Shown here: positions 6,679-51,054 of the stretch, one piece after another | Layout: the number at the start of each line of letters is the position of its first letter | How positions within the stretch are numbered: the stretch's first letter is position 1 | DNA from: an uncultured Planctomycetaceae bacterium | GTDB lineage: Bacteria; Planctomycetota; Planctomycetia; Pirellulales; UBA1268 | Assembly (NCBI GenBank): GCA_903885565.1 | Contig: CAISJI010000142.1 | Location: 1 to 64,000 of the forward strand | Length of the DNA: 64,000 bases | Reading direction: 5' to 3' | The notes under the pieces: generated by a model | Told to the model about the DNA's origin: nothing | Seen by the model: only the letters and a program-made list of their open reading frames with translations | The model's database searches: none | Made by a program: the position numbers and the translations under genes

Positions 6679-7950
6679 TTATTGATAATCCTCAGGAGCG
6701 GGGGGGCAGTTGCCACCGGGAGGGCAGTTGGCTGCGGCTTCTGCATCTGGATCGGGTCCGCCGTTGTTGGAGAAGCGGGTGCGATCTTCCTTCGGCTGCT
6801 TGAGAATGATCCCCGGCACGTCAGACCGTTCGGCGATGTAGGCCCGGTGTGCCGGCTTGGGATAGCTCAGGCCAGGATACTGCTGCACATGGATCTTCAT
6901 CTCACGCGTCGGCCCGGGGATATGCATCTTCGTGTGGTTGGTGATCGTGTGCTTCTGCAGGCCGGCGGGGATCCCCAGCGGGATGTGGGCCGGACCGGGC
7001 AGGCCGATCGGAGTGCCCGTGATCGGCATTCCGTATTGCGGCGCTGTCACACCGGCAATGAAGGGGGGCGGTCCCTGCGAACCATCGCTGCCGCAGGGGG
7101 CACCCAGCAGCAGGCCACCGCCTGGGCCACCACTTCCCATCCCCATGCCGCTGCCGGCAGCCATGTTGGCCAGAGCGCCGCGGCCGGGAGATTCAAGATC
7201 CTTGTTGCCGATCCGGATGATCGCCAGGATCGAGCCGCGCCGGTCGGCCTCGACCACCGGGTCGCAGCCCGGATCGAGCCGCGTGCTGACGAGAGTCTCA
7301 ACCCCCGCCACCGCCAGTTCCTGGTATTCAGGATCGGGCAGGTAGACCACCTTGGTAACGAAGTTTCCCGAGGTGACCTGATCGAGGTCTTCTTCGGTGA
7401 GCTGGAAGGGGATGGCATTGTGGGCCAGGAAAGCGTCGGTGCGCGGGGTGACGGGGGCCACTTCCAGCGAAGGATAGAGTTCCACGCCGGCCCTGCCGGG
7501 GATGTCGGTCAGCTTGAGCCGATAGATCGCTCCCTGAGCGAAGTCATACCGGCCGGGCACGACGAGCGGTTCGGAGTCGAAGCCCCCCGCCTCGGTCACA
7601 TCCCACAGCACCCGCATGCCATCGGGGCCGATGAAGCCGATTTGATGGGCGGGCACCTGCATGCTTTCCGGGAGCATTCCTCCCCCGTCACCCATGCCCC
7701 CTGCTTCGGCGCCAGCCGCCTCGAGGGCCGCCTCATAGGAGACCGGGGCGATCACGCCTGGCCCCGGGCCTTCCACGCCCGGACCGGGATGCTGCAGCAT
7801 GGCAGCGGGCGGCAGCACGTTGGTGTGCGGCGTCGCCACCGGACGGATCTGGGCCAGACCCGTCAGGGGGGAGTTGGCCGGAATATGACAGCCAGTCAGC
7901 GCTGCTGCCATCGACAGGCCAACAAACGGGTGTAGATGTCGTTTCACCAT
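6679..7950 (-). CDS. Lineage-specific envelope lipoprotein
   Basis: 423 residues from an ATG preceded by GGAGGTGA, a very strong ribosome site. MVKRHLHPFVGLSMAAALTG leads to Cys at about residue 21, a lipobox. Residues 60-100 are Pro/Gly-rich; the centre (GFIGPDGMRVLWDVTEAGG to GSILAIIRIGNKD) is a beta-rich module also present in the next gene; the C-terminal part is Gly/Met-rich and ends in a Pro/Cys tail (NCPPGGNCPPAPEDYQ). The centre resembles proteins annotated only as planctomycete hypothetical. It heads the minus-strand envelope cluster and is divergent from the LolA-like gene at 8196. No catalytic motif is visible. Confidence 0.7.
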   Translation of the reverse strand: MVKRHLHPFVGLSMAAALTGCHIPANSPLTGLAQIRPVATPHTNVLPPAAMLQHPGPGVEGPGPGVIAPVSYEAALEAAGAEAGGMGDGGGMLPESMQVPAHQIGFIGPDGMRVLWDVTEAGGFDSEPLVVPGRYDFAQGAIYRLKLTDIPGRAGVELYPSLEVAPVTPRTDAFLAHNAIPFQLTEEDLDQVTSGNFVTKVVYLPDPEYQELAVAGVETLVSTRLDPGCDPVVEADRRGSILAIIRIGNKDLESPGRGALANMAAGSGMGMGSGGPGGGLLLGAPCGSDGSQGPPPFIAGVTAPQYGMPITGTPIGLPGPAHIPLGIPAGLQKHTITNHTKMHIPGPTREMKIHVQQYPGLSYPKPAHRAYIAERSDVPGIILKQPKEDRTRFSNNGGPDPDAEAAANCPPGGNCPPAPEDYQ

Positions 7951-8195
7951 CGCGTCACCTCCAAAGCCAACGGTCGGATGCGAATTGTGGGGCCGGGGGC
8001 CCGCACGGGAGTTGTGCAGTCGTTGTGTGTGCGGGCAGCGGGCGTTTCCGCCTTGGGCCGGTCGGGGGTGTTTTCGTACACTGACATTTGCTGGGCAGCC
8101 TGCAGCCAGGTGTCCGGAAGGCGACCATCCGACACCCTTGTGTTCGTCGTTTCGGCCCCCGGTTCTTTGGCAAAATCCGCAAAGTCGGTGCGACC

Positions 8196-9287
8196 GTGAA
8201 CAACACCCCTCCCCGCAGATTCCCCCACCTGCGTCGTTCACCGGCGTTCCGGGGGCCGGCGCGGGTTTCAATGGCTGTATGGCCCCTGATGGGGCTGTTG
8301 GCTGTTTGGGAGACCGGCAGTGGTCTTTCCCATGCCCAGCCCGGCACTGCGGGCAGCATCTACAGCCGGCCGGTCGCGGTGGCGGGTGACGGAGCCCAGC
8401 CGGGGGGCGGGGAAGGGACGGTCGTCCCGCTGGCAGCCGCCGCCGGGGCGGGGCAGGGGGGAGTCCAGGGGGTGGAACAGGCAGATCAGGCAGGCAAGGC
8501 GGAGCGGGTGGTGGCGGCGGCGCTGGCCGGCTTGGCCCGGGCGCCCTCCATTTCCGCCCGGGTACGGCAGCTGGTCCGCGTGGGAAACATGGTGCTCAAG
8601 GGGAGCGGTCGCTACATCCAGTCGGGAACGGGGGAGGAGCAGCGCTATCGCTATGAAACGACGCTCAATACAACCTCAGAAGAATTCGAGATGCTGGAGG
8701 TATGCGATGGGCTGTTCGCGTGGAGCTATCGCAAGCTCGGTCCGCAGTCGGCTCAGGTGGAGCGGGTCGACATTCGTCAGGTGCGCGACCGGCTCACCGC
8801 CTTGCAGGTCGCCGATCGCACCGATATTTCCAGCCATTTGGGCGGCATCCAGCGGCCGTTGGCGCGGGTTCGGCAGTGGTTTCGCTTCACAACCGTCACA
8901 TCTGCGGTGATGGACGAGGTGCCGATCTGGCTCGTCGAGGGGGCCTGGGATCGCGAGAGCCTCGCCCTGATTCTGCCGGGGCAGGCCGAACAGATCAGAA
9001 GCCCAGCCGGCATCGGGCCGGCCGATCTTCCCGAGGGAGTGCCGTGGAGCGTGCGGCTCTCGATCAGCAAGCGGGAGCTGTTTCCCTGTCGGGTCGAATG
9101 GCTGGCGATTCCCGGCCCGCGGCCGGTGGGTGTGGCGCAACCGGAAGTGGTGGCGGTTCTTGAGCTCTACGACGTGCGGATCGGCGAGCCGGTCGACGCC
9201 ACGGCGTTCGTCTACAAGCCAGCCACCGAGGGCTTGCTCGACACCACCGACACCGCCGTCAGCCAGGTGGCCCCTTGGCGGCCGTGA
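8196..9287 (+). CDS. Exported LolA-like protein of unknown role
   Basis: 363 residues from a GTG at 8196; an internal ATG at 8271 directly in front of the hydrophobic segment is an alternative start. The hydrophobic stretch VWPLMGLLAVWETG followed by SHAQ looks like a signal peptide. After a Gly/Ala-rich linker, residues from about 110 read VRQLVRVGNMVLKGSGRYIQ, YETTLNTTSEEFEMLEVCDG and LFAWSYRKLG, a pattern like the half-barrel of LolA/LppX-type periplasmic lipid carriers, ending with a VAVLELYDVRIGEPVD strand. Fold assignment is tentative. It is divergently placed from the lipoprotein gene at 7950, with about 245 bases between them. Confidence 0.6.
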   Translation: MNNTPPRRFPHLRRSPAFRGPARVSMAVWPLMGLLAVWETGSGLSHAQPGTAGSIYSRPVAVAGDGAQPGGGEGTVVPLAAAAGAGQGGVQGVEQADQAGKAERVVAAALAGLARAPSISARVRQLVRVGNMVLKGSGRYIQSGTGEEQRYRYETTLNTTSEEFEMLEVCDGLFAWSYRKLGPQSAQVERVDIRQVRDRLTALQVADRTDISSHLGGIQRPLARVRQWFRFTTVTSAVMDEVPIWLVEGAWDRESLALILPGQAEQIRSPAGIGPADLPEGVPWSVRLSISKRELFPCRVEWLAIPGPRPVGVAQPEVVAVLELYDVRIGEPVDATAFVYKPATEGLLDTTDTAVSQVAPWRP

Positions 9288-9330
9288 GACTTTTGCCATC
9301 CCGAAGCTGACGCGCCGATGACGTCGCAGG

Positions 9331-10431
9331 TTATGTCGCACAGCCTGAAGAAGGCACCAGTGCCAGCGCCGCCTCGATCGCCGCCAGCATGCTGGCCGGG
9401 TCGGCCTGGCCGGTGCCGACGATATCAAAGGCCGTTCCATGCGCAACACTGGTGCGCACCAGCGGCAGCCCCAGCGTGATGTTGACTGCCCGGTGCATGC
9501 CGAGCAGCTTGATGGGGATGTGGCCCTGATCGTGGTATTGGGCAACGATGCCATCGAACGCGCCGCGGCTGGCCCGCAGAAAGAGCGTGTCGGCGGGGAG
9601 CGGGCCGGCCACATCGATGCCAGCCTCGGCCAAGGCCGCCACGGCCGGGAGGATGATGCGTGTTTCCTCGTCGCCAAAGAGCCCCCCTTCGCCGCCGTGG
9701 GGATTGAGGGCGGCCACGGCGATGCGGGGGGAACGCTGCAGTAATGCCTGCAGCAGGGTGGCCAGCCGCAGGCCAGCCTGCACGATTCTCTCGGTGGAGA
9801 GGTGCTCCAGGGCGCTGGCGAGCGCCTCATGGAGCGTGGCATGCACAACGCCCAGCCCGGCCGCCGGCCCAGCCGCTCCGGCAGCGGCAGGGAGCCAGAG
9901 CATCATTGAGGCGGCGCTGTCTGCCAGACCGCAGGCCCTTGCCAGCCATTCGGTGTGACCCGGCACCTGTTCCCCGGCGGCATGGAGCGCCTCCTTGTGG
10001 AGCGGTCCGGTAACGAGGGCATCGATCGAGCCATCATGGGCCGGGGCAGCCGGCGTTTCGGCGCGGCGGAGGTGGGCATGGGCGGTGCGGAGGGCGGCGA
10101 GGGCGCTGCGTCCGCCCGCGGCGCTGATCTGGCCCCGGAGCACGTCCTCGGTGGGGCCTGCGGAGGGGATCACCAGCACGGTGGCTGGCGTCGAGGGGCG
10201 TTGGTCCTGCGGCGCGACGGCGACGATCTCCAGCCGGGGGAGCGTGGGGATTTCCGCCACCAAGCGGCGCAAAAGATGTGGATCGGCCACGACTCGCAGC
10301 CGTGCTTCCGCATGGGCTGGTGTGGCGGCCCAGGCGGCAAGCACCACCTCTGGGCCGATCCCTGCGGAATCGCCGCAGGTCAGCGCCAGGGTCGGTTGGT
10401 CGGGCCGGCTGGCGGATGGGGCGCTAGGCAT
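9331..10431 (-). CDS. pdxA: 4-hydroxythreonine-4-phosphate dehydrogenase
   Basis: 366 residues, the usual PdxA length. The enzyme oxidises 4-phosphohydroxy-L-threonine with NAD+ in the DXP-dependent pathway to pyridoxal phosphate, in the cytoplasm. The start TLALTCGDSAGIGPEVVLAA is the family signature; LVTGPLHKEAL and GHTEWLA supply the first metal-binding His; LNPHGGEGGLFGDEE and PADTLFL...YHDQGHIPIK carry the remaining metal ligands and substrate-binding residues. A GTG at 10473 in the same frame is an alternative start; neither start has a clear ribosome site. It is convergent with the LolA-like gene and divergent from the membrane protein at 10533. Confidence 0.93.
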   Translation of the reverse strand: MPSAPSASRPDQPTLALTCGDSAGIGPEVVLAAWAATPAHAEARLRVVADPHLLRRLVAEIPTLPRLEIVAVAPQDQRPSTPATVLVIPSAGPTEDVLRGQISAAGGRSALAALRTAHAHLRRAETPAAPAHDGSIDALVTGPLHKEALHAAGEQVPGHTEWLARACGLADSAASMMLWLPAAAGAAGPAAGLGVVHATLHEALASALEHLSTERIVQAGLRLATLLQALLQRSPRIAVAALNPHGGEGGLFGDEETRIILPAVAALAEAGIDVAGPLPADTLFLRASRGAFDGIVAQYHDQGHIPIKLLGMHRAVNITLGLPLVRTSVAHGTAFDIVGTGQADPASMLAAIEAALALVPSSGCAT

Positions 10432-10532
10432 GCGATGCTCGGCAGAGGGGGCGGGGGGAGCGCTACACTTCACCAGCCCACCAGCCTATAACCGAGGTGG
10501 TGAGGCTGCGAACAGGTTCTGTTGTGGCCGTG

Positions 10533-11114
10533 ATGGATCAATTGGCACTGGAGTTTGGCACAGGCATGGAACGAGTCTATTCCCTGGCGGCCATGTTTGC
10601 GGTGGCGCTGATGGTAGCCACGGCTGGTTTGGGTCTGTGGCTCGGGGATCTGCACGGGCAGATCGATCCAGCGGTGCTGCGCTGGGGCACGGTCCACCGG
10701 CTCTCGGGTGTGCTGGCGGCGCTGATGGTGGTGCTGGTCAACAGCATCTCCGTCACCTACTTCATCGGCACCGGTCGCTGGTGCCGCGAGGTGGTGGAAA
10801 CCTACGCTCTTGCGCCCGCTTTGATCGAGCGCAGCCGGCGGATCAAGCGAGCCGCTTTTCCCGCTTCGTTGCTCGGCATGCTGGCGGTGGTGGCGATTGT
10901 GGCCCTGGGTGGGGCGGCCGATCCAGCAACGGGCCGGCCTGGCACGGAGGCGTGGGTAACGCCGCATCTGGTTGGGGCGCTGGGCTTGGTGGCCGCCATC
11001 GCCTGGTGCTTTCAATCGCAATTGCCTCAGTTCCGCCGGCAGCATGCACTCATCGAAGAGGTGCTCGCGGAAGTGCGGGCGGTGCGGCTGGCCCGGGGTC
11101 TCGATGTGGGGTAA
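10533..11114 (+). CDS. Four-helix membrane protein of unknown function
   Basis: About 193 residues from ATG 10533 (in-frame GTG at 10497 and ATG at 10566 are alternatives; none has a strong ribosome site). Four hydrophobic segments: MFAVALMVATAGLGLWLGD, the segment after VHRLSGV, AFPASLLGMLAVVAIVALGG and PHLVGALGLVAAIAWCF. Histidines sit at the start of helices 2 and 4 (VHRLSG, PHLVGA), an arrangement that could bind haem b as in small di-haem cytochromes, but that is speculation. The C-terminal helix is cytosolic and charged. The last 65 bases overlap the 3' end of the convergent ZIP gene. Confidence 0.6.
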   Translation: MDQLALEFGTGMERVYSLAAMFAVALMVATAGLGLWLGDLHGQIDPAVLRWGTVHRLSGVLAALMVVLVNSISVTYFIGTGRWCREVVETYALAPALIERSRRIKRAAFPASLLGMLAVVAIVALGGAADPATGRPGTEAWVTPHLVGALGLVAAIAWCFQSQLPQFRRQHALIEEVLAEVRAVRLARGLDVG

Positions 11115-12087
11115 GCGGCACGCTACCGCCATGCCCGCGGTGGGAATGCGAACTGCGCTCCACCACCGTGATCCCCCAGGCAATGGTGATTCCCAGTGCG
11201 AGTGCCGCAGAGAGGAGGAGCCTGTCGTGGCTGTGAAACTCCACCTCCGGGAGCAGATCGGCCGCCGCGATGCAGAGGAAGGCGCCGGCAGCCAGCGCCA
11301 GCGCGATACCGAGCAGGGGGCTGCGGTCGCCGCCGAAGAACTGCAGGCTGAGGAGAAATGCAAAGGCCCCCAGCGGCACCACCAGCGCGTAGATCGCGTT
11401 GACCAGGCGCCGCGCCTTGGCCGTGGCTCCCGATTGAATCATCAGCGTGGCGATGATGCCGGCATCGAACGGCTTGTGGAGCACGATTGCCAGAAACGCC
11501 GCAAATCCCGCGAGCAGGCCCCCTCCGTCGGCATCCACGGCGGCGGCCAGAGCGGCACCGTCGGCGAGGCTGTGCAGGGCCAGTCCCGAAAAGGCGCCAC
11601 ACCAGGCCCAGCTGTGGCCATGGGCTGATGGCTTGCCGGCGGCAGGGACGGGGGAAGGCCCATGGTGGTTGGGGGCATGGTCGTGCCCCTCGTGGGCTCC
11701 CCGGCAGTGGCCATCGTGGGTGCCATCGGCGGCATGGTGGGCGTGGCTGCGAAAGGCCCGCTCCAGCAGAAACATCCCGAAAAAGCCCGCCAGCACCCAG
11801 GGCATTGTGTCGTCGAGCCGGCCGTTGAGTTCGAGGACTGCGTGGGGCAACAGATGGAGCAACCCCACTCCCAGCATGATGCCGCCGGTGAGCGAGAGGA
11901 GCACCTGCATGCGGCGGTGCCCCAGCGACAGGAAGGCGATGCTCGAGCCTCCGGCAAGGGCGGCCCCCACGATCAACAGCAGATAGAATGCCAGCCCCAT
12001 GGATGATGCCGGGGGGAGTGCTGCCACGAATGCGTGCATGGGGGGCCTGAAGGAACGCGCCAGAGAAACCGTCTGGTCAAACTGCAC
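11050..12087 (-). CDS. ZIP-family metal transporter
   Basis: 345 residues from a GTG with GGCAGGA four to five bases upstream; ATG at 12039 (MHAFVAALPP) is an alternative. Seven to eight hydrophobic segments, with a His-rich cytosolic loop (about residues 115-160, HAHHAADGTHDGHCRG and HEGHDHAPNHHGPS), the usual metal-sensing loop of ZIP carriers. The transport-site helices are visible as LALHSLADGAALA and IVLHKPFDAG (canonical HSxxDG and HKxxE/D motifs), and a third as AAADLLPEVEFHSHD. It probably imports Zn2+ or a similar divalent ion. The dispersed leader motif GTGAAAAAAGTC lies about 45 bases upstream (12133-12148). Confidence 0.88.
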   Translation of the reverse strand: MQFDQTVSLARSFRPPMHAFVAALPPASSMGLAFYLLLIVGAALAGGSSIAFLSLGHRRMQVLLSLTGGIMLGVGLLHLLPHAVLELNGRLDDTMPWVLAGFFGMFLLERAFRSHAHHAADGTHDGHCRGAHEGHDHAPNHHGPSPVPAAGKPSAHGHSWAWCGAFSGLALHSLADGAALAAAVDADGGGLLAGFAAFLAIVLHKPFDAGIIATLMIQSGATAKARRLVNAIYALVVPLGAFAFLLSLQFFGGDRSPLLGIALALAAGAFLCIAAADLLPEVEFHSHDRLLLSAALALGITIAWGITVVERSSHSHRGHGGSVPLTPHRDPGPAAPPALPRAPLR

Positions 12088-36603: not shown

Positions 36604-37203
36604 TCACCGCATCGGCCGCAGGCCGCCGAACAGACCCCGACGCAGCGGTACCAGCACCGTGGCGGGGGCCAACGGCACCGGTGCCGGGGCGTAGTAGGTG
36701 GTGGTCTGTGCGTAGCTCGCCGGAGCATAGACCTCGCTCATGACGGCCACGGGAGCCGACTCGCCGCCGTAGTAGGCGGTCGTGGCCTGCCCATAGCTCT
36801 GAGCGTAGGTGGGGGCGTAGGTGGGGGCGTAGTAAGCGGTCACCGGCCGGGCGACCTGCATCATCGCCGGAGCGGCGTAGCTGGTGACAGCCACTGAGCT
36901 GGAAGGCACCATCGCCGCCACCGGCGTGGAAACCACGGCTGTTGGCACACCGGCGTAGACGGGGGGGGAAAACGCCGTCACTGCGGCGTAGTTTCCCGAG
37001 GGTGTGTAGTTGGCGGTGTAAGGGCCGGCGGCTGGGGCAAACATCGGCACAACCGGCCTGTAGACCACCGTCTGTGCGTCGGCAGTGCCGAGGCAGGCCA
37101 CGGCAGCGCCCAGAGCCACCGCCGGTGCCAAGGCCCGCCGCCAGAGGCAGACTCGCGGCGTCAGACACAGGGTGGCAGAGCGATTGGAGAACGAGGCGGT
37201 CAT
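36604..37203 (-). CDS. Secreted Tyr/Ala/Val/Pro-rich protein
   Basis: 199 residues from ATG 37203. Signal peptide: RRALAPAVALGAAVACLGT ending ADAQ. The mature part is low-complexity, with recurring Y-A-P, T-Y-A and PVV units (YYAPTYAPTYAQSYGQ, VYAPASYAQTTTYYAPAP), and ends LRRGLFGGLRPMR. No domain is recognisable. Such Tyr-rich repeats occur in exported structural proteins of planctomycetes. It is divergent from the MFS-acyltransferase fusion. Confidence 0.65.
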   Translation of the reverse strand: MTASFSNRSATLCLTPRVCLWRRALAPAVALGAAVACLGTADAQTVVYRPVVPMFAPAAGPYTANYTPSGNYAAVTAFSPPVYAGVPTAVVSTPVAAMVPSSSVAVTSYAAPAMMQVARPVTAYYAPTYAPTYAQSYGQATTAYYGGESAPVAVMSEVYAPASYAQTTTYYAPAPVPLAPATVLVPLRRGLFGGLRPMR

Positions 37204-37456
37204 GGCGGGGGATCCTGTCTGCGATGGGCGGTGCGAACGTGTCGATTCAGTGAAGAATACGTCCCCACCCTCCGGGTGTGCAAACGTGGAACCCCCTTCC
37301 TGCCAGATTCCTGATCGCCCGAGTCTGCCTGTATGGCCTGCGCCGGATATGCTGTTGCCCGTCTGGCAGCGGCCAGCCGCTGGGATGGCAGAAAAGCCGT
37401 TCCACGCGTCGCAATCACAGCACCGCAGACGCGGGGGAGACGACACCTTGGCAGAG

Positions 37457-40360
37457 ATGCACTCCGGCACAACGCCGCCAGTTTCGGGCGGGCTGGGCCC
37501 GCTCCTGACGCTTCGCGCCCTGACGGTGGCCAACGACAACATCCTCCGCTGGCTGGCGATTGGCTTGGGCAAGCGGGCTGTGGGAAGTGGGCAGGTGGCG
37601 CTGGTGCTCACCCTCGGCACCGCTGGCTTCGTGCTCCCCTTTGTGGTGCTGGCGTGGCTGGCAGGGTATCTCGCCGATCGATATCCCAAGCGGTCGGTCA
37701 TTCTGTGGTGCAAGTTCGCCGAAATCGGGATTGTGCTGGCCGCCGCCGGGGCGATCGCCTGGGGGGTGCAGTCGGGGGGCCTGCTCGGCGGATTGCCGGT
37801 GGGGCTGTGGCTGCTCATGGGCAGCGTGGTTCTCATTGGCTGCCAGGCGGCGCTGCTGGCGCCGAGCATGATCGGCGCGCTCCCGGAGACGGTGCCGGCG
37901 GGCCGGCTCTCGGCCGCCAACGGCCTCTTTGCGATGATCACGCTGGTGGCCACGCTCGTCGGCACGGCGGGGGGCAACTGGCTGGCGGACCAAACACCGC
38001 TGCCGGGGTTCGCTGCCGGCGCCGTCGCCTCCCCTTCCTGGTCGGCCGCGGCGCCGGCGGCAGCCCTGCTGGCCGCGGTGGCGGTGGCGGGGTGGCTGGC
38101 CGCTTTCAGGCTGCTGCCGCGCCCGGCGGCCGATCCGACGGCGCCTCCCCCGTGGAATGCGCTGAGACGCACGTGGGCCGATCTGGCCGAGCTGTTCCGT
38201 TCTCGGGAGCTCACCGCCGCCGCCGCTGGGAGCGCTTTTTTCTGGGCGCTCGGGGCAGTCGGCAATCTCAATATCGATCAGTTTGGCTCCGAAGGGGGCG
38301 CCTTGGCGCAGACGCAGATCGTGCCGCTGCTGGTGGCACTCGGGGCGGGCATTGGGCTGGGCAGCCTGCTGGCGGGGCGGTTGTCCTCGCGCGGCGTGAA
38401 TCTGGGGCTGGTGCCGCTCGGGGCGGTGGTGGTGGCGGCGTCCTCGTTCTGTTTGGCTGGCTGTCCGCAGCCGATTTTCACGCCGGAGGGCACGGTGGGA
38501 TTTGCCTGGTGGTGGGCGATGGGCTGGCTGCTGCTGTTGGGGCTGGGGGCAGGTGTGTTTGACGTGCCGCTGGAGGCCTATTTTCAGGAGCGGAGCCCGC
38601 CGGCCCGCCGCGGCGCTCTCCTGGCGGCCCTCAACCTTCTCGTCTTCACCACGATGTTTGCCGCCTCGATGCTCTACGGGGTGTTGCGGGTCTCCTCCCC
38701 CGTGACCCACCTGCCGCTGGTCTCGGCCCGGGGGGTGTTTGGCCTGTTCGGTTGTCTGGCGCTGGTTGCCGCCGGACTGGCTGTCTACTGCGCGCCACGC
38801 TCGACCCTCCGCGCCGTGGCCGCGGGACTCGTGCATGCGTTCTATCGGTTTCGCATCCGGCGGGACGACCTCCTGCCTGCTACCGGCCCGGCGCTGGTTG
38901 TCGCCAACCACCTTTCCTGGCTGGACGGGTTTATCGTCGTGCTCGCCGCGCCGCGGCCGATCCGGTTGGTGGTCTTTGGGCCCAACATTCAGGGCCGCTT
39001 CCTGCGCATGCTTGCCGACCAGTGGCGGTTCATCCTGTTTGATCCGCGCCCCAAATCGATTGGCGTGGCGCTCAAGACGATGCAGGCGGGGCTCCGCGAG
39101 GGGGATGTGGTCGGCATTTTCTCGGAGGGGGGCATCTCGCGCACCGGGCAGATCATGGGCTTCAAGCGGGGGCTCGAGTGGATCCTCCAGCGTGTGGAGG
39201 CGCCGATTGTGCCCCTCCATATCGACGGCATGTGGGGCAGCCTGCTCTCCTTCTCGGAGGGGCTGTTTTTCAACAAACGCATCCGCGGTTTCCGCCGTCC
39301 GATCACACTCACCTTCGGCACCCCGCTCCCTGTCGGAACGCCTCCGCCCAAGGCCCGCCAGGCGCTGCAGGAACTCTCCGCAGAGGTGGTGCGCAGGCGG
39401 ATGCTCGCGACCCGGTCGCCGCAGCGGGAGGTCGCGGCGTGGCTGCGACTGCAGCGGGGCAACGTGGTGGCGATCGATGCTGCCGGACGGACCCTCACGG
39501 GGGCCGACGTGCTGGCGGCGGGAGGCTCTCCAGCGAGTGGCGCTGTGGCAGCGGTCAAGGGGCTGCTCGGCTGGGCCGCGGGGCATGGCGTTACCGGCGG
39601 GCCTGACTGGGCAGCTCTGGCAGCCATGGCCGAGGCCTTTGACGGCGCCTGTCTGGTGCGGCGCACCGACCGGATGCTCAGTTCGCTGGGGAACGCTGAT
39701 CCGCTGGGGGACTCTCTGGGAGTGTGCGCTGGACCGCTGCTGGGCATCGAGTGCATCGTGGCCGATCCCGCCCTGTCTGTGGCGAGCCTCCGCGAGACGG
39801 TGCAGCAACGGGGCATCACGCTCTGGCTGGCTGGTCTCGAGCAGGTGCTGGCCGTGGTCGACGAACCGGAGACCGCCGCCTCTCCTCTGCCCGGCTGGTG
39901 CAGCACGCTGGATGTGGTGGTGATCCCGGTCGGATCGTGGGCCGAGGGGGTGCGGGCGCAGGAGGCTGCCAGCCGGTTCCACAGGGCGCTGGGGATCGAG
40001 CCGGTTGTGGCCTTTGCCCCCCGCACAGCCGGCGGCCTGGTGGCGATGAACTCGCCGCCATCGCGGGCCGCCACCGAACACGAAATAACGCTCAAGGCCG
40101 ACACGCTCGGACGGGTTCTCAATGGAGTGGTGGTCTGGCCCCGGCGGGATGATCGCGATGGGCTGGGGCTGCCCCCCTGCGGCGCAGGGGCGGATGCCGA
40201 CACGCTGGTCATCGGCGCCACTCTGGCCGGACCCCCGGCCACGCCCGAGGGGCCGGCTGTGTGGGTGGCTGTTGAGCCCCTGGATGTCGATCAGGAGGGC
40301 TTTCTGGTGCCCCGGGGCATGCTGCCGGCCCCCCCTGCCGAGAAGCCGCCCCGGCGCTGA
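37457..40360 (+). CDS. MFS transporter - PlsC acyltransferase fusion with degenerate adenylation domain
   Basis: About 967 residues from ATG 37457; a TTG at 37448 (GGGGGAG upstream) and ATG 37385 are alternatives. Residues ~15-440: twelve hydrophobic helices of an LplT-like MFS carrier (LTLRALTVANDNILRWLAIG, AGYLADRYPKRSVILW). Residues ~465-640: PlsC acyltransferase with NHLSWLD (484-490), FSEGGISRTGQ and APIVPLHIDGMWGS. Residues ~650-967 correspond in position to the acyl-ACP synthetase domain of LplT-Aas type fusions, but I see no AMP-binding P-loop (S/T-S/T-G-T-T-G-x-P-K-G), so it appears inactive or reduced. The known fusion flips lysophospholipids and reacylates them; here reacylation would need acyl-ACP or acyl-CoA from elsewhere. 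Confidence 0.85.
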   Translation: MHSGTTPPVSGGLGPLLTLRALTVANDNILRWLAIGLGKRAVGSGQVALVLTLGTAGFVLPFVVLAWLAGYLADRYPKRSVILWCKFAEIGIVLAAAGAIAWGVQSGGLLGGLPVGLWLLMGSVVLIGCQAALLAPSMIGALPETVPAGRLSAANGLFAMITLVATLVGTAGGNWLADQTPLPGFAAGAVASPSWSAAAPAAALLAAVAVAGWLAAFRLLPRPAADPTAPPPWNALRRTWADLAELFRSRELTAAAAGSAFFWALGAVGNLNIDQFGSEGGALAQTQIVPLLVALGAGIGLGSLLAGRLSSRGVNLGLVPLGAVVVAASSFCLAGCPQPIFTPEGTVGFAWWWAMGWLLLLGLGAGVFDVPLEAYFQERSPPARRGALLAALNLLVFTTMFAASMLYGVLRVSSPVTHLPLVSARGVFGLFGCLALVAAGLAVYCAPRSTLRAVAAGLVHAFYRFRIRRDDLLPATGPALVVANHLSWLDGFIVVLAAPRPIRLVVFGPNIQGRFLRMLADQWRFILFDPRPKSIGVALKTMQAGLREGDVVGIFSEGGISRTGQIMGFKRGLEWILQRVEAPIVPLHIDGMWGSLLSFSEGLFFNKRIRGFRRPITLTFGTPLPVGTPPPKARQALQELSAEVVRRRMLATRSPQREVAAWLRLQRGNVVAIDAAGRTLTGADVLAAGGSPASGAVAAVKGLLGWAAGHGVTGGPDWAALAAMAEAFDGACLVRRTDRMLSSLGNADPLGDSLGVCAGPLLGIECIVADPALSVASLRETVQQRGITLWLAGLEQVLAVVDEPETAASPLPGWCSTLDVVVIPVGSWAEGVRAQEAASRFHRALGIEPVVAFAPRTAGGLVAMNSPPSRAATEHEITLKADTLGRVLNGVVVWPRRDDRDGLGLPPCGAGADADTLVIGATLAGPPATPEGPAVWVAVEPLDVDQEGFLVPRGMLPAPPAEKPPRR

Positions 40361-43161: not shown

Positions 43162-44115
43162 TTGGCCATCCCGAACGACGTGAGTCAGGGAACCGGGACG
43201 CCAGGAGCCAGTCGAACCGCAGTGCTGTTTCCCGGACAGGGAGCCCAGGCGGTTGGCATGGTTGGCCAGTGGTGCGAGCAGTCGCCCGCGATTGCGGCGC
43301 TCTTTGTCCGAGCCAACGCGATACTCGGCTACGACCTGGAAGCGATCTGCCGCCAGGGGCCGGCGGAGGCTCTCGACAGTACTGCGGTCAGCCAGCCGGC
43401 GATTTTGGTCACCAGCTTGGCTGCCTTGGAACTGTTGAAGCAGCGGCCCGACCGGCTGCTCGACTCGGTGACGGCCACTGCCGGCCTGTCGCTCGGCGAA
43501 TACACCGCTTTGGTATTTGCCGGAGCCATCGATTTCGAGGATGCAGTGCGGCTTGTCGACATTCGTGGGCGGGCCATGCAGGCCTGCGCGGATGCCCATC
43601 CAGGCGGCATGCTGGCAGTGCTCGGCCTCTCCCGCGAGCAGGTTGCGAGCCTGTGCGACGACGTGCGCGGCGGAGAAGTGCTCGAGGTTGCCAATGTGCT
43701 CTGCCCGGGGAATGTGGTCGCCTCCGGCACCGTGGCTGCGTGCACGCGGTTGGCCTCTGCGGCCGGAGCGGCGGGGGCGATGAAGTCCGTTCGGCTGGGA
43801 GTGGCCGGGGCCTTCCACACCAGTCTCATGCAGCCGGCCGTGGAGGCCTTGAGCCTGGCGCTCGCCAGCACCACGATCCGCGCTCCGCGCATGCCTGTGG
43901 TGAGCAATGTTGATGCCCGGCCGCATCACGATCCTGACGAAATCCGGCATCTGCTGGCGCGGCAGGTGGTGGGTGTCGTGGAGTGGCAGGCCTCGGTGGA
44001 GCATCTGCTGGCCGATGGCATACGGACAATCTACGAGGTGGGGCCCGGACGGGTGCTGCGGGGACTCATGAAGCGGATCGACCGCACCGTCGCCTGTTTC
44101 GGGGCGTTGGACTGA
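43162..44115 (+). CDS. fabD: Malonyl-CoA:ACP transacylase
   Basis: 317 residues from a TTG at 43162 with GAGGG 8 bases upstream; a GTG at 43180 is an alternative. Moves malonyl from CoA to acyl carrier protein. N-terminal TAVLFPGQGAQAVGMVGQW, nucleophile Ser110 in GLSLGEYTALVFAG, the catalytic His in GVAGAFHTSLMQPAV, and NVLCPGNVVASG with the Q/N-type motif VGPGRVLRGL. Next to rpmF with no plsX or fabH between. Confidence 0.95.
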   Translation: MAIPNDVSQGTGTPGASRTAVLFPGQGAQAVGMVGQWCEQSPAIAALFVRANAILGYDLEAICRQGPAEALDSTAVSQPAILVTSLAALELLKQRPDRLLDSVTATAGLSLGEYTALVFAGAIDFEDAVRLVDIRGRAMQACADAHPGGMLAVLGLSREQVASLCDDVRGGEVLEVANVLCPGNVVASGTVAACTRLASAAGAAGAMKSVRLGVAGAFHTSLMQPAVEALSLALASTTIRAPRMPVVSNVDARPHHDPDEIRHLLARQVVGVVEWQASVEHLLADGIRTIYEVGPGRVLRGLMKRIDRTVACFGALD

Positions 44116-44145: not shown

Positions 44146-44934
44146 ATGGCGAATGAGAGCAAGCTGCCGGCAGTGGAGCCGAAGCGGTTGGCAGTCGATC
44201 TGACGGGGCAGGTGGCGATCGTGACGGGGGCCTCCCAGGGCCTCGGACGGGCGATCGCTGAGTGCCTGGCGGCCAACGGTGCCAGCGTGGCGATTGTCGC
44301 CCGCAATGCCGCCAAGCTGGCCGAGGTCGCGGCGGGGATCCGCGCTGCCGGCGGTCAAGCCGAGGAGTTTCCCTGCGATGTGTCGCAGGCTGAGGCTGTC
44401 AGCGCCGTGGTTGAGGCGATCCACGCCAAGCTCGGCCGGATCGATATTCTGGTCAACAACGCCGGCGTGACCCGGGATACGCTGCTGCCGAGAATGAGCG
44501 ACGAGGAGTGGGACGAGGTCTTGGCCACGAACCTCCGCGGGCCGTTTCTGTTCATGCGGGCCGCCAGTCGCCCGATGATGCAGCAACGCTACGGACGGAT
44601 CATCAACGTGGCCAGCGTCTCGGGCCTCATCGGCAATCCCGGCCAGGCCAACTACTCCGCCTCAAAGGCGGGCCTTGTCGGTCTCACCCGGACTGTGGCC
44701 AAGGAACTCGCCGGACGAAAAATCACGGTCAATGCGGTTGCCCCCGGCTTCATCGCCAGCGACATGACAGCAGCTCTCGGCCCTGCCCTGCTCGACGAGG
44801 TGAAGAAACGGGTCCCCGCCAAGCGGCTCGGAGAGGCTTGGGAAATCGCCCAGGCAGTGCTGTTTCTGGCTTCGCCATCGTCGGGATACATCACGGCACA
44901 GGTAGTGACCGTCGATGGTGGACTGATTGGATAA
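44146..44934 (+). CDS. fabG: 3-oxoacyl-ACP reductase
   Basis: 262 residues. NADPH-dependent short-chain reductase of the elongation cycle. VAIVTGASQGLGRAIAECLA is the cofactor motif, NNAGVTRDTLLPRM the NNAG block, INVASVSGLIGNPGQANYSA with SKAG the Ser-Tyr-Lys triad, and LAGRKITVNAVAPGFIASDM the C-terminal hallmark. The N-terminus is about 15 residues longer than usual (MANESKLPAVEPKRLAVDLT). Confidence 0.95.
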   Translation: MANESKLPAVEPKRLAVDLTGQVAIVTGASQGLGRAIAECLAANGASVAIVARNAAKLAEVAAGIRAAGGQAEEFPCDVSQAEAVSAVVEAIHAKLGRIDILVNNAGVTRDTLLPRMSDEEWDEVLATNLRGPFLFMRAASRPMMQQRYGRIINVASVSGLIGNPGQANYSASKAGLVGLTRTVAKELAGRKITVNAVAPGFIASDMTAALGPALLDEVKKRVPAKRLGEAWEIAQAVLFLASPSSGYITAQVVTVDGGLIG

Positions 44935-45215: not shown

Positions 45216-45452
45216 GTGGCGTCCGTCCAAGAACGTGTGATCGACATCGTGGCGTCCCAATTGGGCGTCAGCAAGGATCAGATCACTGCGGAAACTTCGT
45301 TCATTAACGATCTCGGTGCCGATTCCCTCGACACGGTCGAACTGGTGATGGAACTCGAGGAGGAGTTTGAGATCAACATCTCGGACGACGCCGCGGAGAA
45401 GATCCAGACCGTCGGCCAGGCGGTTGAGTTCATCGAAAAGCACCAGGCTTGA
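45216..45452 (+). CDS. acpP: Acyl carrier protein
   Basis: 78 residues from a GTG with AGGAGG eight bases upstream. Four-helix carrier with the phosphopantetheine site [14 protein letters not shown] (Ser37). Acidic, as expected. 281 bases separate it from fabG, more than for other members of the cluster, so it may have its own promoter to reach the high level ACP needs; no clear consensus boxes were found. fabF follows 11 bases on. Confidence 0.96.
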
Positions 45453-45463
45453 CGGTACTTTGA

Positions 45464-46705
45464 ATGAAGCGTCGCGTCGTTGTTACCGGTTTGGGCGTTG
45501 TCACCTCTCTCGGGCGGGCCGTCGATCTCTTCTGGGATCGCTTGGTTCGCGGCGATAGCGGTGTCGGTCCGATCACGCTCTTTGACGTGACCGGCTACCG
45601 GGTGCAGTTCGCCGGCCAGGTTCACTGGAAGCCGGAGGAAGAGGGAATCGCCAACCTCAAGGAATTGAGGAGGCTCGATCGGTTTTCGCAGTTTGCCCTG
45701 GCGGCAGCTGCCGATGCCGTTTCCGACTCGGGACTCGACTTTTCCCGGGAAGAGCCCTACCGCTGCGGCGTGGTGATCGGTTCCGGTATCGGCGGACTGG
45801 CGGAGTTCGAGGCCCAGCATGAGCGGCTGCTCACGAAGGGGATCGACAAAGTCTCTCCGTTTACGATTCCCAAGCTCATCGTCAACTCAGCCAGTGGCCA
45901 CGTTTCGGCGATGCATGGGGTCAAGGGACCGAATTTCGCTGTGGCCACCGCCTGCGCCAGTGCTGCCAACTCCATGGGGGACGCGCTCCGGGCGATCCAA
46001 TATGACGACGCCGATATCATGATCACCGGCGGCAGCGAAGCGGCCCTGACGCCGATGGGTTTGGCTGGCTTCCAGAACATGCGGGCTCTTTCCGAACGCG
46101 TCGACGCTCCGCAGCGGGCCAGCCGGCCGTTCGATGCCCAGCGCGACGGCTTCGTGCTCGCCGAGGGGGCCGGGGTGGTGGTGCTGGAGGAGTTGGAGCA
46201 TGCCCGGCGGCGGGGAGCCAGAATCTACGGCGAACTCAAGGGCTACGGCGCCAGCGGCGACGCGGGCCACATCACGCAGCCTGACGAGCAGGGACGCGGC
46301 GCGGCGTGGGCCATGGGCCGGGCGCTGGCCGATGCCGGACTGAATATTGACGCCGTCGACTACATCAACGCCCACGGCACGAGCACTCCACTGGGCGACA
46401 AGGCCGAAACGCTCGCCGTGAAGAGTGTCTTCGGTGCCCATGCCAAGCGGCTGGCGATCTCGAGCACCAAGAGCCAGCTGGGGCACACCTTGGGGGCCAG
46501 TGGCGGCATCGAGATGGTGGCCTGTGCGCTCACGTTGTCGCGGGGTGTGATCGCCCCGACAATCAACCTGGAAAATCCCGATCCTGATTGCGATCTCGAC
46601 TATGTGCCCTTGGTGGCGCGTGAGGCGAATGTCCGGGTGGCGATGAGCAATAGCTTTGGATTTGGTGGCCACAATGCGAGTTTGATTCTGGCCCGTCTGG
46701 ATTGA
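45464..46705 (+). CDS. fabF: Beta-ketoacyl-ACP synthase II
   Basis: 413 residues. Condensing enzyme with complete catalytic set: Cys164 in FAVATACASAANSMGDA, His304 in INAHGTSTPLGDKAE, and Lys336/His341 in SSTKSQLGHTLGASGG. N-terminus MKRRVVVTGLGVVTSLGRAV is canonical. Part of rpmF-fabD-fabG-acpP-fabF; compare with the non-canonical homologue at 48048. Confidence 0.96.
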   Translation: MKRRVVVTGLGVVTSLGRAVDLFWDRLVRGDSGVGPITLFDVTGYRVQFAGQVHWKPEEEGIANLKELRRLDRFSQFALAAAADAVSDSGLDFSREEPYRCGVVIGSGIGGLAEFEAQHERLLTKGIDKVSPFTIPKLIVNSASGHVSAMHGVKGPNFAVATACASAANSMGDALRAIQYDDADIMITGGSEAALTPMGLAGFQNMRALSERVDAPQRASRPFDAQRDGFVLAEGAGVVVLEELEHARRRGARIYGELKGYGASGDAGHITQPDEQGRGAAWAMGRALADAGLNIDAVDYINAHGTSTPLGDKAETLAVKSVFGAHAKRLAISSTKSQLGHTLGASGGIEMVACALTLSRGVIAPTINLENPDPDCDLDYVPLVAREANVRVAMSNSFGFGGHNASLILARLD

Positions 46706-46809
46706 AGCTCTGCGGCCCCTTCCGGGGGCAGCCAGACTGAGGCCGCAATGCGGCCGGAGTGACCGTTGGAAGTCGCGGCATGCCCCGCCGCCCGGGAAGG
46801 ATGGTCGCG

Positions 46810-47850
46810 ATGATCCCTCGCGCTGCTCCGCGACCGGCCGGTGTGCCAGTGACACTGCGCTCTATCCGCGGCCTGATCGCGGCGCTCTGCTGGGCGAGTC
46901 TGTCGCTCGGGCTGGGCTGGTGTGGCGAGGCGGCGTGGGGGCAACTCCCGGCCGACGCCGGACAGGTCTGGAAAACCTACGACATCGCGCCGTTTGTTCA
47001 GCAGGCGGGTGAGGGCAGCCAGAAGCATGTGGTCGACTGGATTCTCCAGGACACCGGCTATGGCAGCTGGCATGGCGACACGGTCGCTGTCCTCTCGGCC
47101 AACGCGAAGAGCCTGCGGTGCTTTCACACGCCCGAGATCCAGGAGCGGGTGGCGGAGACGGTAGCCCGTTTCGTGGAGGATGCCGCCGCTCCCCACCGGT
47201 TCGCCGTGCGGGTTTTGGGAGTCGGCTCGCCCGCCTGGAGGGCCGATGCCCGTCCCCTGCTCCGGCCGATTCCCACTTCCACCCCGGGAGTGCAGGCCTG
47301 GATGATGTCGCGCGAGGAGGCGGCGATTCTGGTGGCCACGCTGCGGCGGCGGGGGGACTGCCAGGAACTCCCCACCGGCCCGGTGCAGGCGGCCAATGGC
47401 CTGCCAGCGACGCTCTCCGGGGGGCGCAAACGAGCCTATGTGCAGGATATTGCCCTCCGGCCCGACATCTGGCCCGGTTGGCAGACGCTGGGAGCCTCGT
47501 GCGACGAAGGGATGCTGATCGACGTTCATCCGCTGATCAGTCGCGACGGGACGGCTGTTGAGGCGGTGCTGCGCTGCCGGATCGACCAGATTGAGAGGAT
47601 GGCTTCCGTGCCGGTCAATCTGGCTGATGCTCAGGGGAAGCGTTTGCAGATCGAGGTGCCGCAGATGGTGGCGGTGCGGGTCGGCGAGCGGTTCCGCTGG
47701 CCGATTGGGCAGGTTTTGGTCATCGGGTTGGGATTGGTGCCTTGGCCCGTGCCAAGGCAGAATACCGACGGCTCGGCTGCCCACCCGGCGACCGCTTCCC
47801 GCACGGATGTGGTGTTGGTGGTTGAGCCCCGATTGAGCGGTGTTCCGTAG
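46810..47850 (+). CDS. Secreted protein with secretin-like N-domain features
   Basis: 346 residues from ATG 46810 (GGAAGG nine bases upstream; ATG 46801 is also possible). Signal peptide: IRGLIAALCWASLSLGLGW ending EAAWGQ. The first mature domain reads YDIAPFVQQ...VVDWILQDTGYGSWHGDTVA, VLSANAKSLRCFHTPEIQER, VAETVARFVED, resembling the small N domain of secretin-like proteins in which a strand/helix module tests and wraps a peptide. The end VGERFRWPIGQVLVIGLGLV with DVVLVVEPRLSG also suits such proteins, but no beta-barrel secretin domain is present. Function unknown. Confidence 0.6.
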   Translation: MIPRAAPRPAGVPVTLRSIRGLIAALCWASLSLGLGWCGEAAWGQLPADAGQVWKTYDIAPFVQQAGEGSQKHVVDWILQDTGYGSWHGDTVAVLSANAKSLRCFHTPEIQERVAETVARFVEDAAAPHRFAVRVLGVGSPAWRADARPLLRPIPTSTPGVQAWMMSREEAAILVATLRRRGDCQELPTGPVQAANGLPATLSGGRKRAYVQDIALRPDIWPGWQTLGASCDEGMLIDVHPLISRDGTAVEAVLRCRIDQIERMASVPVNLADAQGKRLQIEVPQMVAVRVGERFRWPIGQVLVIGLGLVPWPVPRQNTDGSAAHPATASRTDVVLVVEPRLSGVP

Positions 47851-47856
47851 AGAGTC

Positions 47857-47872
47857 GTGAAAAAAGTCATCC
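47857..47872 (+). promoter_or_regulatory. Dispersed leader motif, copy D
   Basis: GTGAAAAAAGTCATCC, on the plus strand, 175 bases before the ketosynthase-like gene at 48048 and just after the stop at 47850. Same core as the copies at 12133, 15826, 26545 and 26667. Confidence 0.45.
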
Positions 47873-48047
47873 CTGTCCGTCCGCACCCCAACCCTCCCCC
47901 GTGTAGCCGACCACCGGCACATGCCCCCTGCGCGGCACCCACTGGCGTTGCCAGGATCAACAACTTCCGCAGCCAGCGATGGCCGAATGTATGCACAGCC
48001 CGCGAGCAGGCTGTGACTGAGATCCCCCTTGGAGCAGGAATTCGTTC

Positions 48048-49388
48048 ATGACTACCGGCAAGCAACGACGTGTGGTGATCACGGGTATGGGAACGGTCTG
48101 TCCGCTCGGCCTGACGCTGGAGGATGTGTGGGCCGGATTGCTGGCCGGCACCAGCGCCATGGGGCCGTTGGAATCGTTTCCGGCGGAGGGCCTGCCGCTC
48201 CACCATGCCGCCGAAGCCCGCTGCTTCACCGGAGAGATCGACAACTTCGGTCCGCTCGATGCGGAGAAGAAAAAGGCGATCCGCAAGGGGCTCAAGGTGA
48301 TGTGCCGGGAAAGCCAGATGGCGGTGGCCGCGGCGCAGCGGGCGCTGCACGGCTGCGGGCTCGGTGCCGACCAACACCATCCGGAGCGGTTTGGCTGTGT
48401 GTTTGGCTCTGATTACATGCTCACGCTCCCGGAGGATTTCACCGCCGGTGTGGCCAAGTGCCGCAATGCCTCGGGGGGCTTTGATTTCCAGCGCTGGGCC
48501 GTTGACGGCATGCCGCAACTGACGCCGCTGTGGTTGCTGAAGTATCTGCCGAACATGCCCGCCAGCCACATTGCCATCTACAACGACCTCCGCGGCCCCA
48601 GTAATTCGATCACCGTGCGTGAAGCCAGCGGCCATCTGGCGATTGGTGAGGCCACAGTCACGATCCAGCGTGGCGCGGCCGACATGATGCTCGCTGGTGC
48701 CACCGGAACACGGGTGCATCCGATGAAAACAGTGCATGCGCTGCAGAGCGAGCAGGTGGCGCTGGGCAATGGTCTGCTGGAAAATGCCCCCCCCGCCAGC
48801 TGGAGCCGTCCGTTCGACAAGAATCGCCAGGGAATGGTGTTGGGCGAGGGAGCGGCCGTGCTGGTGCTTGAAGAACTGGAGCATGCGACGGCCCGCGGCG
48901 CGACGATCTACGGCGAAATTCTCGGTCACGCTGCCCGCAATGCCGGCGACGCCCGGGGGGTCGGCAGGAAGCACCGCGCCATGGCCTTGGCGCTGGGGCG
49001 GGCACTGGAAATCTCGGGCCTCTCCCCCGACCGGATCGGCCACATCCATGCCCACGGTGCCAGCACCGTGGCGGGAGACCGCGAGGAGGCCCGGGCGCTG
49101 CACGATTGCCTGGGGGATGTGGCCCACACAATTCCCACCGTGGCAGCCTCCAGCCACTTCGGCAATCTCGGGGCGGCCGGCGGGGTTGTGGAGTGCATCG
49201 CCAGCGTGTTGGCGATGCGGCACAAGACGCTCTTTCCACTGCTCAATTTCCAAATCCCCGATCCGGAATGTGCCATCCGCGCGGCCCGGGCCGGTGATCC
49301 CCCTGGCGACGTGTTTATCTCCTCGTCCGTGACGCCCCAGGGGCAGGCGGGAGCGATTGTGGTCGGCGCATGGGACATGCCGGCCTGA
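48048..49388 (+). CDS. Ketosynthase-like protein with replaced catalytic residues
   Basis: 446 residues, thiolase-fold homologue of FabF over its whole length (VVITGMGTVCPLGLTLEDVW to GQAGAIVVGAWDMPA). The catalytic residues are changed: the Cys position is Glu192 (TVREASGHLAIGEA against FabF TACASAANSMGDA), the second-half Lys is Ser368 and the second His is Asn373 (SSHFGNLGAAGG); only the first His (336, HAHGAST) is kept. It therefore should not condense acyl chains in the normal way. It may act like a KS-beta/chain-length-factor partner, a decarboxylase (as KSQ domains do with Gln), or a scaffold. It follows the fab cluster and has a leader motif upstream. Confidence 0.85.
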   Translation: MTTGKQRRVVITGMGTVCPLGLTLEDVWAGLLAGTSAMGPLESFPAEGLPLHHAAEARCFTGEIDNFGPLDAEKKKAIRKGLKVMCRESQMAVAAAQRALHGCGLGADQHHPERFGCVFGSDYMLTLPEDFTAGVAKCRNASGGFDFQRWAVDGMPQLTPLWLLKYLPNMPASHIAIYNDLRGPSNSITVREASGHLAIGEATVTIQRGAADMMLAGATGTRVHPMKTVHALQSEQVALGNGLLENAPPASWSRPFDKNRQGMVLGEGAAVLVLEELEHATARGATIYGEILGHAARNAGDARGVGRKHRAMALALGRALEISGLSPDRIGHIHAHGASTVAGDREEARALHDCLGDVAHTIPTVAASSHFGNLGAAGGVVECIASVLAMRHKTLFPLLNFQIPDPECAIRAARAGDPPGDVFISSSVTPQGQAGAIVVGAWDMPA

Positions 49389-49436
49389 CACGGGCAGCGG
49401 TCTGCCGGTGGCTGACGGCCGCGGCGGGCATGCTCC

Positions 49437-49465
49437 TTGACAGTGAGGGGCCGTTGCCATAGGTT
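49437..49465 (+). promoter_or_regulatory. Possible promoter of nusA
   Basis: TTGACA (49437-49442), perfect -35, 17-base spacer, then TAGGTT (49460-49465), a weak -10. Leaves a leader of about 210 bases before the nusA ATG. Confidence 0.5.
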
Positions 49466-49523
49466 TCACGGGTTGGTGCTCGTGGAGTGGGTTCTGGAAG
49501 CGGATGCGCCCCCAGGCCCTATT

Positions 49524-49570
49524 CGCTGTTTTTGTGGCATTTTCCCGTTCGGGAGGATGTCGAAACAGCG
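49524..49570 (+). promoter_or_regulatory. Nested hairpin in the nusA leader
   Basis: An 8-base outer stem CGCTGTTT / AAACAGCG encloses a hairpin TTTCCC / GGGAGG with loop GTTC. It is in the transcribed leader about 115 bases before the ATG. Could stabilise the transcript or serve in control of the operon; family not recognised. Confidence 0.4.
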
Positions 49571-49683
49571 GGTGGCGGCGTGGCGGGTGGTTTCGTGTCG
49601 TGTGTGGCGTCGGCTCGCCGGCAGTGCCATTCGCAGGCAGTGCCTCTCTCTCGTGCGCCCCCCAATACGTCCTGCCAGAATCG

Positions 49684-51054
49684 ATGTCCGAGAATTCCAT
49701 GAAGCCAGAAGAAATTCTTCGTATCGTTGATGCCATCCATCGCGATAAGAACATCGACAAGGAGATCGTCTTTCAGGCGATTGAAGCAGCACTGGTCACC
49801 GCTTTGTCGCGGCAGTATGGTGAAACCTCCGTCATCACGATCGACATCAATCGGGTTGATGGCAATCTCACCGGGTTGCGTGACGGCGTGGCGATTGACA
49901 CTCAAGAACTTTCCGGCCGCATCGGCGCCCAGACCGCCAAGCAGGTGATCATCCAGAAGATCCGCGAAGCGGAGCGGGATGCGATCCACGATGAGTTCGA
50001 GGAGCAGATCGGCCAGATGGTGTCGGGTGTGGTGAGCCGATTTGAGGGCGCCACCGCAACTGTCACACTCGGAGCCACTGAGGCCATCCTGCCCCGGAGC
50101 GAGCAGATCCCGGGCGAGTCGTTCCATCCCAACGAACGGATCCGGGCCACCATCTTCGAGGTGCGCAAGGTCGGCAGTCGGGTGAAGATCATTCTGTCGA
50201 GGATCCGGCCCCAACTGGTGCAGCGGCTGTTTGAGCAGGAGATCCCCGAGATCGCCGACGGCATCATCGAAATTCGGGCCATTTCCCGGGAGCCGGGCTA
50301 CCGCAGTAAGGTGGCCGTTATCAGTTCCGACAACCGGGTCGACTGTGTGGGGGCCTGCGTTGGCGTGCGTGGCAACCGCATCAAAAATATTGTTGAGGAG
50401 CTCGGCGGCGAACGTATCGACATCGTGCGCTGGAGCGAGGATCTGCAGGTGCTCGTGCCCAATGCTCTGCAGCCGGCAGAGGTGGATGAGGTGATCCTCT
50501 GCCAGATGCTCGGCCGGGGCATCGTGCTGGTGCGCGAGGATCAGCTCTCTCTGGCCATCGGCCGCCGCGGGCAGAATGTGCGTCTCGCAAGCAAGCTGTG
50601 TGGCTGGGATATCGAAATCATGACCCGCGAGGAACTCGATCAGCAGATCGAGCGGGCGGTGTCAGGCTTCTCGTCTATCGAGGGCTTGGACGAATCGCTC
50701 GCCGAGAAGTTGGTGGGCGAGGGCTTTTTGTCCTACGACGATCTCTCGGTGATGGAGCCGTCCGACCTGATGGAGATGGGCGGCCTGTCGCTGGAAGCAG
50801 TTGATCAGATCGTGCTCGAGGCCGAGCGTCGCGCGGCGATGGCGGAGGTGGCTGCGGCTGACGAGCGCCGCAAGCAGCGGGAGCATGATCGCGTTGAAAA
50901 GGCCACGGCCGAAGCCGATGCGGTGGAGGCAGCGCTGGTACAGGCTGCTGCTGCGGCGGAGGATGCGGCTGTGGGGGAAGCGGGTGAGGCTGTCGCGGAA
51001 GAGGGGGCTGTCAGCCCGTCTGGCGGTTCCCCAGCCCCGACTCCAGGGGCTTAA
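49684..51054 (+). CDS. nusA: Transcription termination/antitermination factor NusA
   Basis: 456 residues from ATG 49684 (ATG 49699 is an alternative). N-terminal RNAP-binding domain ([36 protein letters not shown]), S1 domain ([20 protein letters not shown]), and KH domains ([40 protein letters not shown]). A HhH-like C-terminal segment ([20 protein letters not shown]) then an acidic Ala/Glu-rich tail. It leads infB-rbfA, but rimP, usually upstream, is absent. Confidence 0.95.

Follow-up and report, generated by a model that had tools for sequence, protein, structure and literature searches.

What does a ketosynthase homologue do when three of the four catalytic residues of its fold have been replaced, and what does it share with the fatty-acid genes that it follows? 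This question is raised by a gene at positions 48048–49388 (+) of the window, the 64,000-nucleotide stretch of an uncultured Planctomycetaceae bacterium analyzed here. Its 446-residue product, P0001, matched both Pfam ketosynthase domains (E-values 4.7e-35 and 1.3e-19), and an AlphaFold2 model built from an alignment of 55 relatives confidently predicted a FabF-type fold for nearly all of its length (mean pLDDT 92.7, pTM 0.92). In comparisons with the PDB, the top match was the FabF structure 4ls8 (TM-score 0.85/0.90) and the other best matches were also FabF enzymes, a ranking in solved-structure and fold searches that does not separate FabF-like function from that of a chain length factor (CLF). 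FabF/KAS II enzymes are defined by a Cys-His-Lys-His set together with the NCBIfam cut-off; P0001 has Glu-His-Ser-Asn and scored 263 bits against a TIGR03150 (fabF) cut-off of 494. By contrast, the FabF encoded at 45464 has an intact Cys/His/Lys/His set, as originally noted. Minus-strand ORFs over the P0001 gene (e.g., 47631–49760) were not accepted as genes; they are shadow ORFs opposite a GC-rich coding strand.

Alignment to the FabF of E. coli (from NC_000913) placed Glu192, His336, Ser368, and Asn373 of P0001 at the positions of Cys163, His303, Lys335, and His340, in agreement with the original prediction of Cys-to-Glu, Lys-to-Ser, and His-to-Asn replacements in a thiolase fold that keeps its first catalytic histidine. 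The corresponding plus-strand codons are at 48621–48623 (GAA, Glu192), 49053–49055 (His336), 49149–49151 (TCC, Ser368), and 49164–49166 (Asn373), and a TPQGQ sequence (49332–49346) stands in place of the GFGG gating loop, with Pro430 at the Phe400 position. Homologues were sought in 147 genomes of the order (Pirellulales-type, including Blastopirellula, Rhodopirellula, and Rubripirellula), 119 of the class, and 149 of the phylum, and sequence from some 120 regions and 80 named loci was retrieved for comparison. All 134 distinct orthologues from the order have Glu at the Cys site, so its presence there is not a matter of chance, and none of them restores Cys, as a sequencing error in P0001 would have required. 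Outside the order, Asp is the alternative (Glu in 21 of 34 KS-β sequences, Asp in 12, and Asn in one). Asn at the His340 site (125/134) and Pro at the Phe400 site (123/134) are also widespread. The Lys335 site is different: because Lys is kept in 130/134 orthologues, Ser368 is a quirk of this genome among its close relatives, and the GAA and TCC codons are unambiguous, with more than a one-base error needed to turn a Lys codon into TCC. Judged from these alignments, Glu and Asn are family features among the changed sites and Ser is not. Even the first catalytic His, although present in P0001, is not conserved family-wide (107/134). In two genera (g53, loci L088, L092, and L093; g76, loci L118 and L119), this His and also the Asn or Lys have drifted, giving the signatures EDKA, EDKS, ENKE, ENAN, and EASN; Glu stays throughout, which suggests that it is the most constrained of the four sites.

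A maximum-likelihood tree of 128 sequences, calculated with the catalytic columns removed, grouped P0001 with other KS-β proteins (83 sequences, support 99) as the sister of a Cys-bearing KS-α clade (23 sequences, support 98), and the two clades together were separate from FabF (support 96). KS-β proteins of family f39 were basal and retained Cys; every other KS-β has Glu, Asp, or once Asn at this site. The tree resembles the duplication pattern of KS/chain-length-factor pairs (PMC10132072).

Gene order also couples the two clades. Outside the order, seven families (f21, f23–f26, f56, and f70) encode ACP, KS-β, and KS-α together, mostly with FabG, in clusters that read (FabG), ACP, KS-β, KS-α; gene calling and Pfam searches of representative loci added two dehydratases as well as a hydrolase and a GH3 protein downstream. 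Within the order, a DH1-(FabG)-ACP-DH2-KS-α arrangement is retained, with KS-β sited elsewhere. Nearly every genome of the order has this cluster; in the genome of P0001, DH1-ACP-DH2-KS-α lies at 7500–11173 of another locus (L123, contig C193), with FabZ/FabA-type dehydratases and an ACP of about 130 residues, longer than AcpP. KS-α and KS-β co-occur nearly everywhere among the 147 genomes of the order, and the genomes with KS-β that gave no KS-α match (e.g., G146 and G138) are draft metagenome-assembled genomes, in which absence was not counted as evidence. In classical CLFs, the usual residue at the Cys site is Gln, which is typical of, and not strictly defining for, the actinobacterial proteins. 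P0001 has the Cys-less, KS-type thiolase fold of a CLF and is sister to a Cys-bearing KS with which its relatives in other families are paired in adjacent genes, whereas the two genes are unlinked in its own genome. Because the KS-β family has Glu, Asp, or Asn instead of Gln, we call P0001 CLF-like and do not file it as a classical CLF.

In the window, the KS-β gene is part of a plus-strand string comprising fabD (43162–44115; TIGR00128 above cut-off), fabG (44146–44934; TIGR01830 above cut-off), acpP (45216–45452; 78 residues, PF00550), fabF (45464–46705; TIGR03150 above cut-off), a gene X (46759–47850), KS-β, and nusA (49504–51054; TIGR01953 above cut-off). The nusA start probably lies near 49684, where a conserved internal Met served as the start of the query in homologue searches. 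Gene X has no Pfam match and a single weak NCBIfam match (MshL-type, E-value 4e-4); it is positionally conserved (31–76% identity), and copies with 31–60% identity lie upstream of KS-β in many loci of the order, where fabD-fabG-acpP-fabF-X-KSβ-nusA-infB is the usual arrangement. Comparison of these gene orders indicates that, in Pirellulales, KS-β moved from the KS-α cluster into this string. Upstream, a 1091-residue frame (37085–40360, +) appeared by eye to combine transporter-like and PlsC-like acyltransferase halves and resembles lysophospholipid transporter–acyltransferase fusions.

Which residues might allow a protein with this active site to work with another ketosynthase? P0001 contains a basic motif, R79-K80-x-x-K83-x-x-x-R87 (48282–48308, +), in which K80 and K83 align with the ACP-docking residues K65 and R68 of E. 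coli FabF. The K65 site is Lys in all 173 distinct acidic KS-β sequences and all four Cys-bearing ones and is basic in only 4 of 43 KS-α sequences; the R68 site is Lys or Arg in 173/173 acidic KS-β sequences versus basic in 14/43 KS-α sequences. Trp162 (48531–48533, +) lies where E. coli FabF has Phe133, which we take to be a dimer-interface residue of the acyl pocket that projects into the pocket of the partner subunit, and Trp is found there in 134/134, 5/5, and 34/34 acidic KS-β sequences (173/173 in all) and in 4/4 Cys-bearing ones. KS-α, in turn, has all of the catalytic residues C163, H303, and H340 as well as the F400 gate, and at the site of I108, which gates the acyl pocket in FabF, it carries Glu in 39 and Lys in 4 of 43 sequences. 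The partition is imperfect, as KS-β lacks the FabF docking residues K69 and R206 and 14/43 KS-α proteins are still basic at the R68 site. Lys65, Arg68, and Lys69 form region 1 of the interface in the AcpP–FabF crystal structure, where ACP is contacted mostly by the FabF monomer to which it is not crosslinked (PMC7138838), so the KS-α and KS-β halves complement each other. The docking and pocket split is already visible in family f39, in which both ketosynthases keep Cys, and specialization therefore preceded loss of the Cys. The f39 loci L135, L137, L138, and L139 encode tandem KS pairs with a full active site in both subunits, a natural intermediate.

We consider it probable that P0001 is a catalytically silent, CLF-like KS-β that forms a heterodimer, in trans, with the dedicated Cys-bearing KS-α encoded on contig C193; the residue partition is what points to a physical heterodimer. 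P0001 would be unable to build fatty chains by itself. In the proposed complex, KS-α would supply the Cys-His-His active site, with the chemistry taking place at its Cys, KS-β would supply much of the ACP-docking surface, and the bulky Trp of KS-β would reach across the interface between the subunits to shape the acyl pocket. Working alongside FabG, both dehydratases, and the special ACP, the pair could then carry out repeated rounds of condensation, reduction, and dehydration, yielding a planctomycete-specific acyl chain. The original proposal that P0001 may partner a real ketosynthase probably holds in this form, and the sequence and gene-cluster evidence points to KS-α instead of the neighboring FabF. 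Counting against this assignment, the two genes are unlinked in their own genome and KS-β lies by fabF. The same genome also encodes a second KS-β, with Asp at the Cys site (L122, 7932–9254, contig C10), which could be the true KS-α partner instead of P0001; it stands alone, with no lipid genes recognized beside it on contig C10. On a broader and more tentative reading, to which we give somewhat less than an even chance, the pair would be a near-universal core second ketosynthase of the class, in which catalysis (KS-α) and docking plus pocket (KS-β, with Glu or Asp) became divided while both subunits had Cys, and the silent subunit then moved into the fatty-acid/nusA string in one large order, tying a planctomycete lipid to core metabolism.

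First among the alternatives, P0001 might partner the neighboring FabF, or the primary AcpP, and modulate how long the chains of ordinary fatty acids become or how fast they are made. Its place in a conserved gene order speaks for this possibility, with FabF upstream of KS-β in 35/52 and NusA downstream in 46/58 named loci with enough flank, and FabF also adjoins KS-β in some members of the related family f22. When per-genome identities of KS-β, KS-α, FabF, and NusA were compared across 68 genera, a crude measure in which identities refer to a single reference, the partial rate correlations with NusA controlled for were weak, at 0.17 and 0.23 (for FabF, r = 0.23, p = 0.06), did not favor KS-α over FabF, and fell to zero at the family level. 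Moreover, in at least 61/63 sequences FabF keeps every catalytic residue and a docking patch of its own, as expected of a self-sufficient homodimer; several complete genomes (G082, G079, G122, and G005) keep KS-β with FabF far away; and the string also includes two genes outside lipid metabolism, X and nusA. We therefore regard partnership with FabF as unlikely.

Second, P0001 might act without a ketosynthase partner, as a homodimeric acyl-ACP or lipid sensor, as a scaffold, or as a new enzyme that uses R191 and E192 in the old active site. These residues are almost fixed in the order (131/134 and 134/134, respectively), KS-β lies outside the KS-α cluster, and the genome has its second KS-β. 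However, the pocket and docking signatures of P0001 equal those of KS-β proteins that adjoin KS-α, conservation of the Arg does not extend beyond the order, and such an enzyme has no candidate substrate; we think a role of this kind improbable. Third, the original suggestion of malonyl-ACP decarboxylation would make P0001 a KSQ-like enzyme that generates acetyl-ACP starters, with Glu in the role of Gln. A polar residue does replace Cys, and the Lys and the ACP-docking residues are conserved in the family. According to a passage by the authors of PMC2649909, however, decarboxylation requires both histidines. As only 7/194 acidic KS-β sequences (1/134 distinct sequences of the order) keep both, H340 is Asn in 125/134, and the GFGG gate is lost, this suggestion fares poorly, and we judge it very unlikely. 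Finally, decay of a pseudogene or degeneration in a single strain, for which the Ser at the Lys site is the one argument, is scarcely credible, as the frame is open across the order, Glu is invariant, the end branch of P0001 is 0.18 (0.06–0.27 for most near relatives), and the tree and order-wide conservation indicate a constrained family, not one in decay.

Substitution of the active-site Cys by Glu or Asp is already on record, having been tabulated for Rhodopirellula baltica in 2009. In the part of that paper concerned, RB4527 (NP_866153) and RB3714 (NP_865682) are described as 'divergent fabF paralogues' that lack Cys163, and the active-site table gives Glu163/His298/Leu300/Asp302/Lys328/Asn333/Pro392 for NP_866153, with the other paralogue an Asp form (Rattray et al., 2009; PMC2649909). 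Compared through the published table only, the NP_866153 signature is that of the Rhodopirellula-type KS-β proteins found here (EHKN-P with HGLSD), and P0001 differs from it in having Ser at the Lys site. The passages of PMC2649909 that bear on these paralogues contain no heterodimer or chain-length-factor reading of them. Searches for literature on planctomycete chain length factors, RB4527/RB3714, and planctomycete type II PKS lipids, which left aside subscription journals and preprints, yielded nothing beyond the 2009 table and a catalogue of type II PKSs with Planctomycetes among its phyla; the literature searched did not describe the family-wide conservation, the pairing of KS-α with KS-β, the partition of docking and pocket residues, or the move to the fab–nusA string.

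Among known systems, KS-β resembles the CLFs of type II PKSs, such as the actinorhodin CLF (1tqy_B), in two respects: it is a Cys-less KS fold, and its sister is a Cys-bearing KS whose gene is often its neighbor, along with genes for ACP, reduction, and dehydration. It differs in having Glu or Asp at the Cys site and, in this order, in being unlinked from its KS, and 1tqy_B is less similar in sequence to P0001 than FabF chains are. KSQ loading decarboxylases likewise have a KS fold in which Cys is replaced, but KS-β has Glu rather than Gln and does not keep the His pair. The gene set of a highly reducing type II PKS (KS, CLF, KR, DH, and ACP) is present, as in the ishigamide system, in which the Iga11–Iga12 KS/CLF pair works with KR and DH and a charged residue lies in the KS pocket (PMC8358021); by analogy, the KS-α Glu at the I108 site (39/43) may be the counterpart of Iga11 Asp113. 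Unlike that system, the planctomycete pair is near-universal in its order rather than sporadic, and its presence in almost every sampled genome makes a widespread acyl product more probable than a secondary metabolite of occasional occurrence.

The family forms a natural series, from pairs in which both subunits have Cys to pairs with Asp or Glu in one, and so illustrates the passage of a homodimeric ketosynthase to a catalytic subunit and a helper. Homology would name such genes FabF or β-ketoacyl-ACP synthase II, and mis-annotation is likely. The genome of P0001 also contains, on contig C197 (L124, 9131–13417), a single 1429-residue frame, truncated where the contig stops, in which two ketosynthase domains lie in tandem, an arrangement that we take to be reminiscent of KS-CLF proteins of the PUFA-synthase type.
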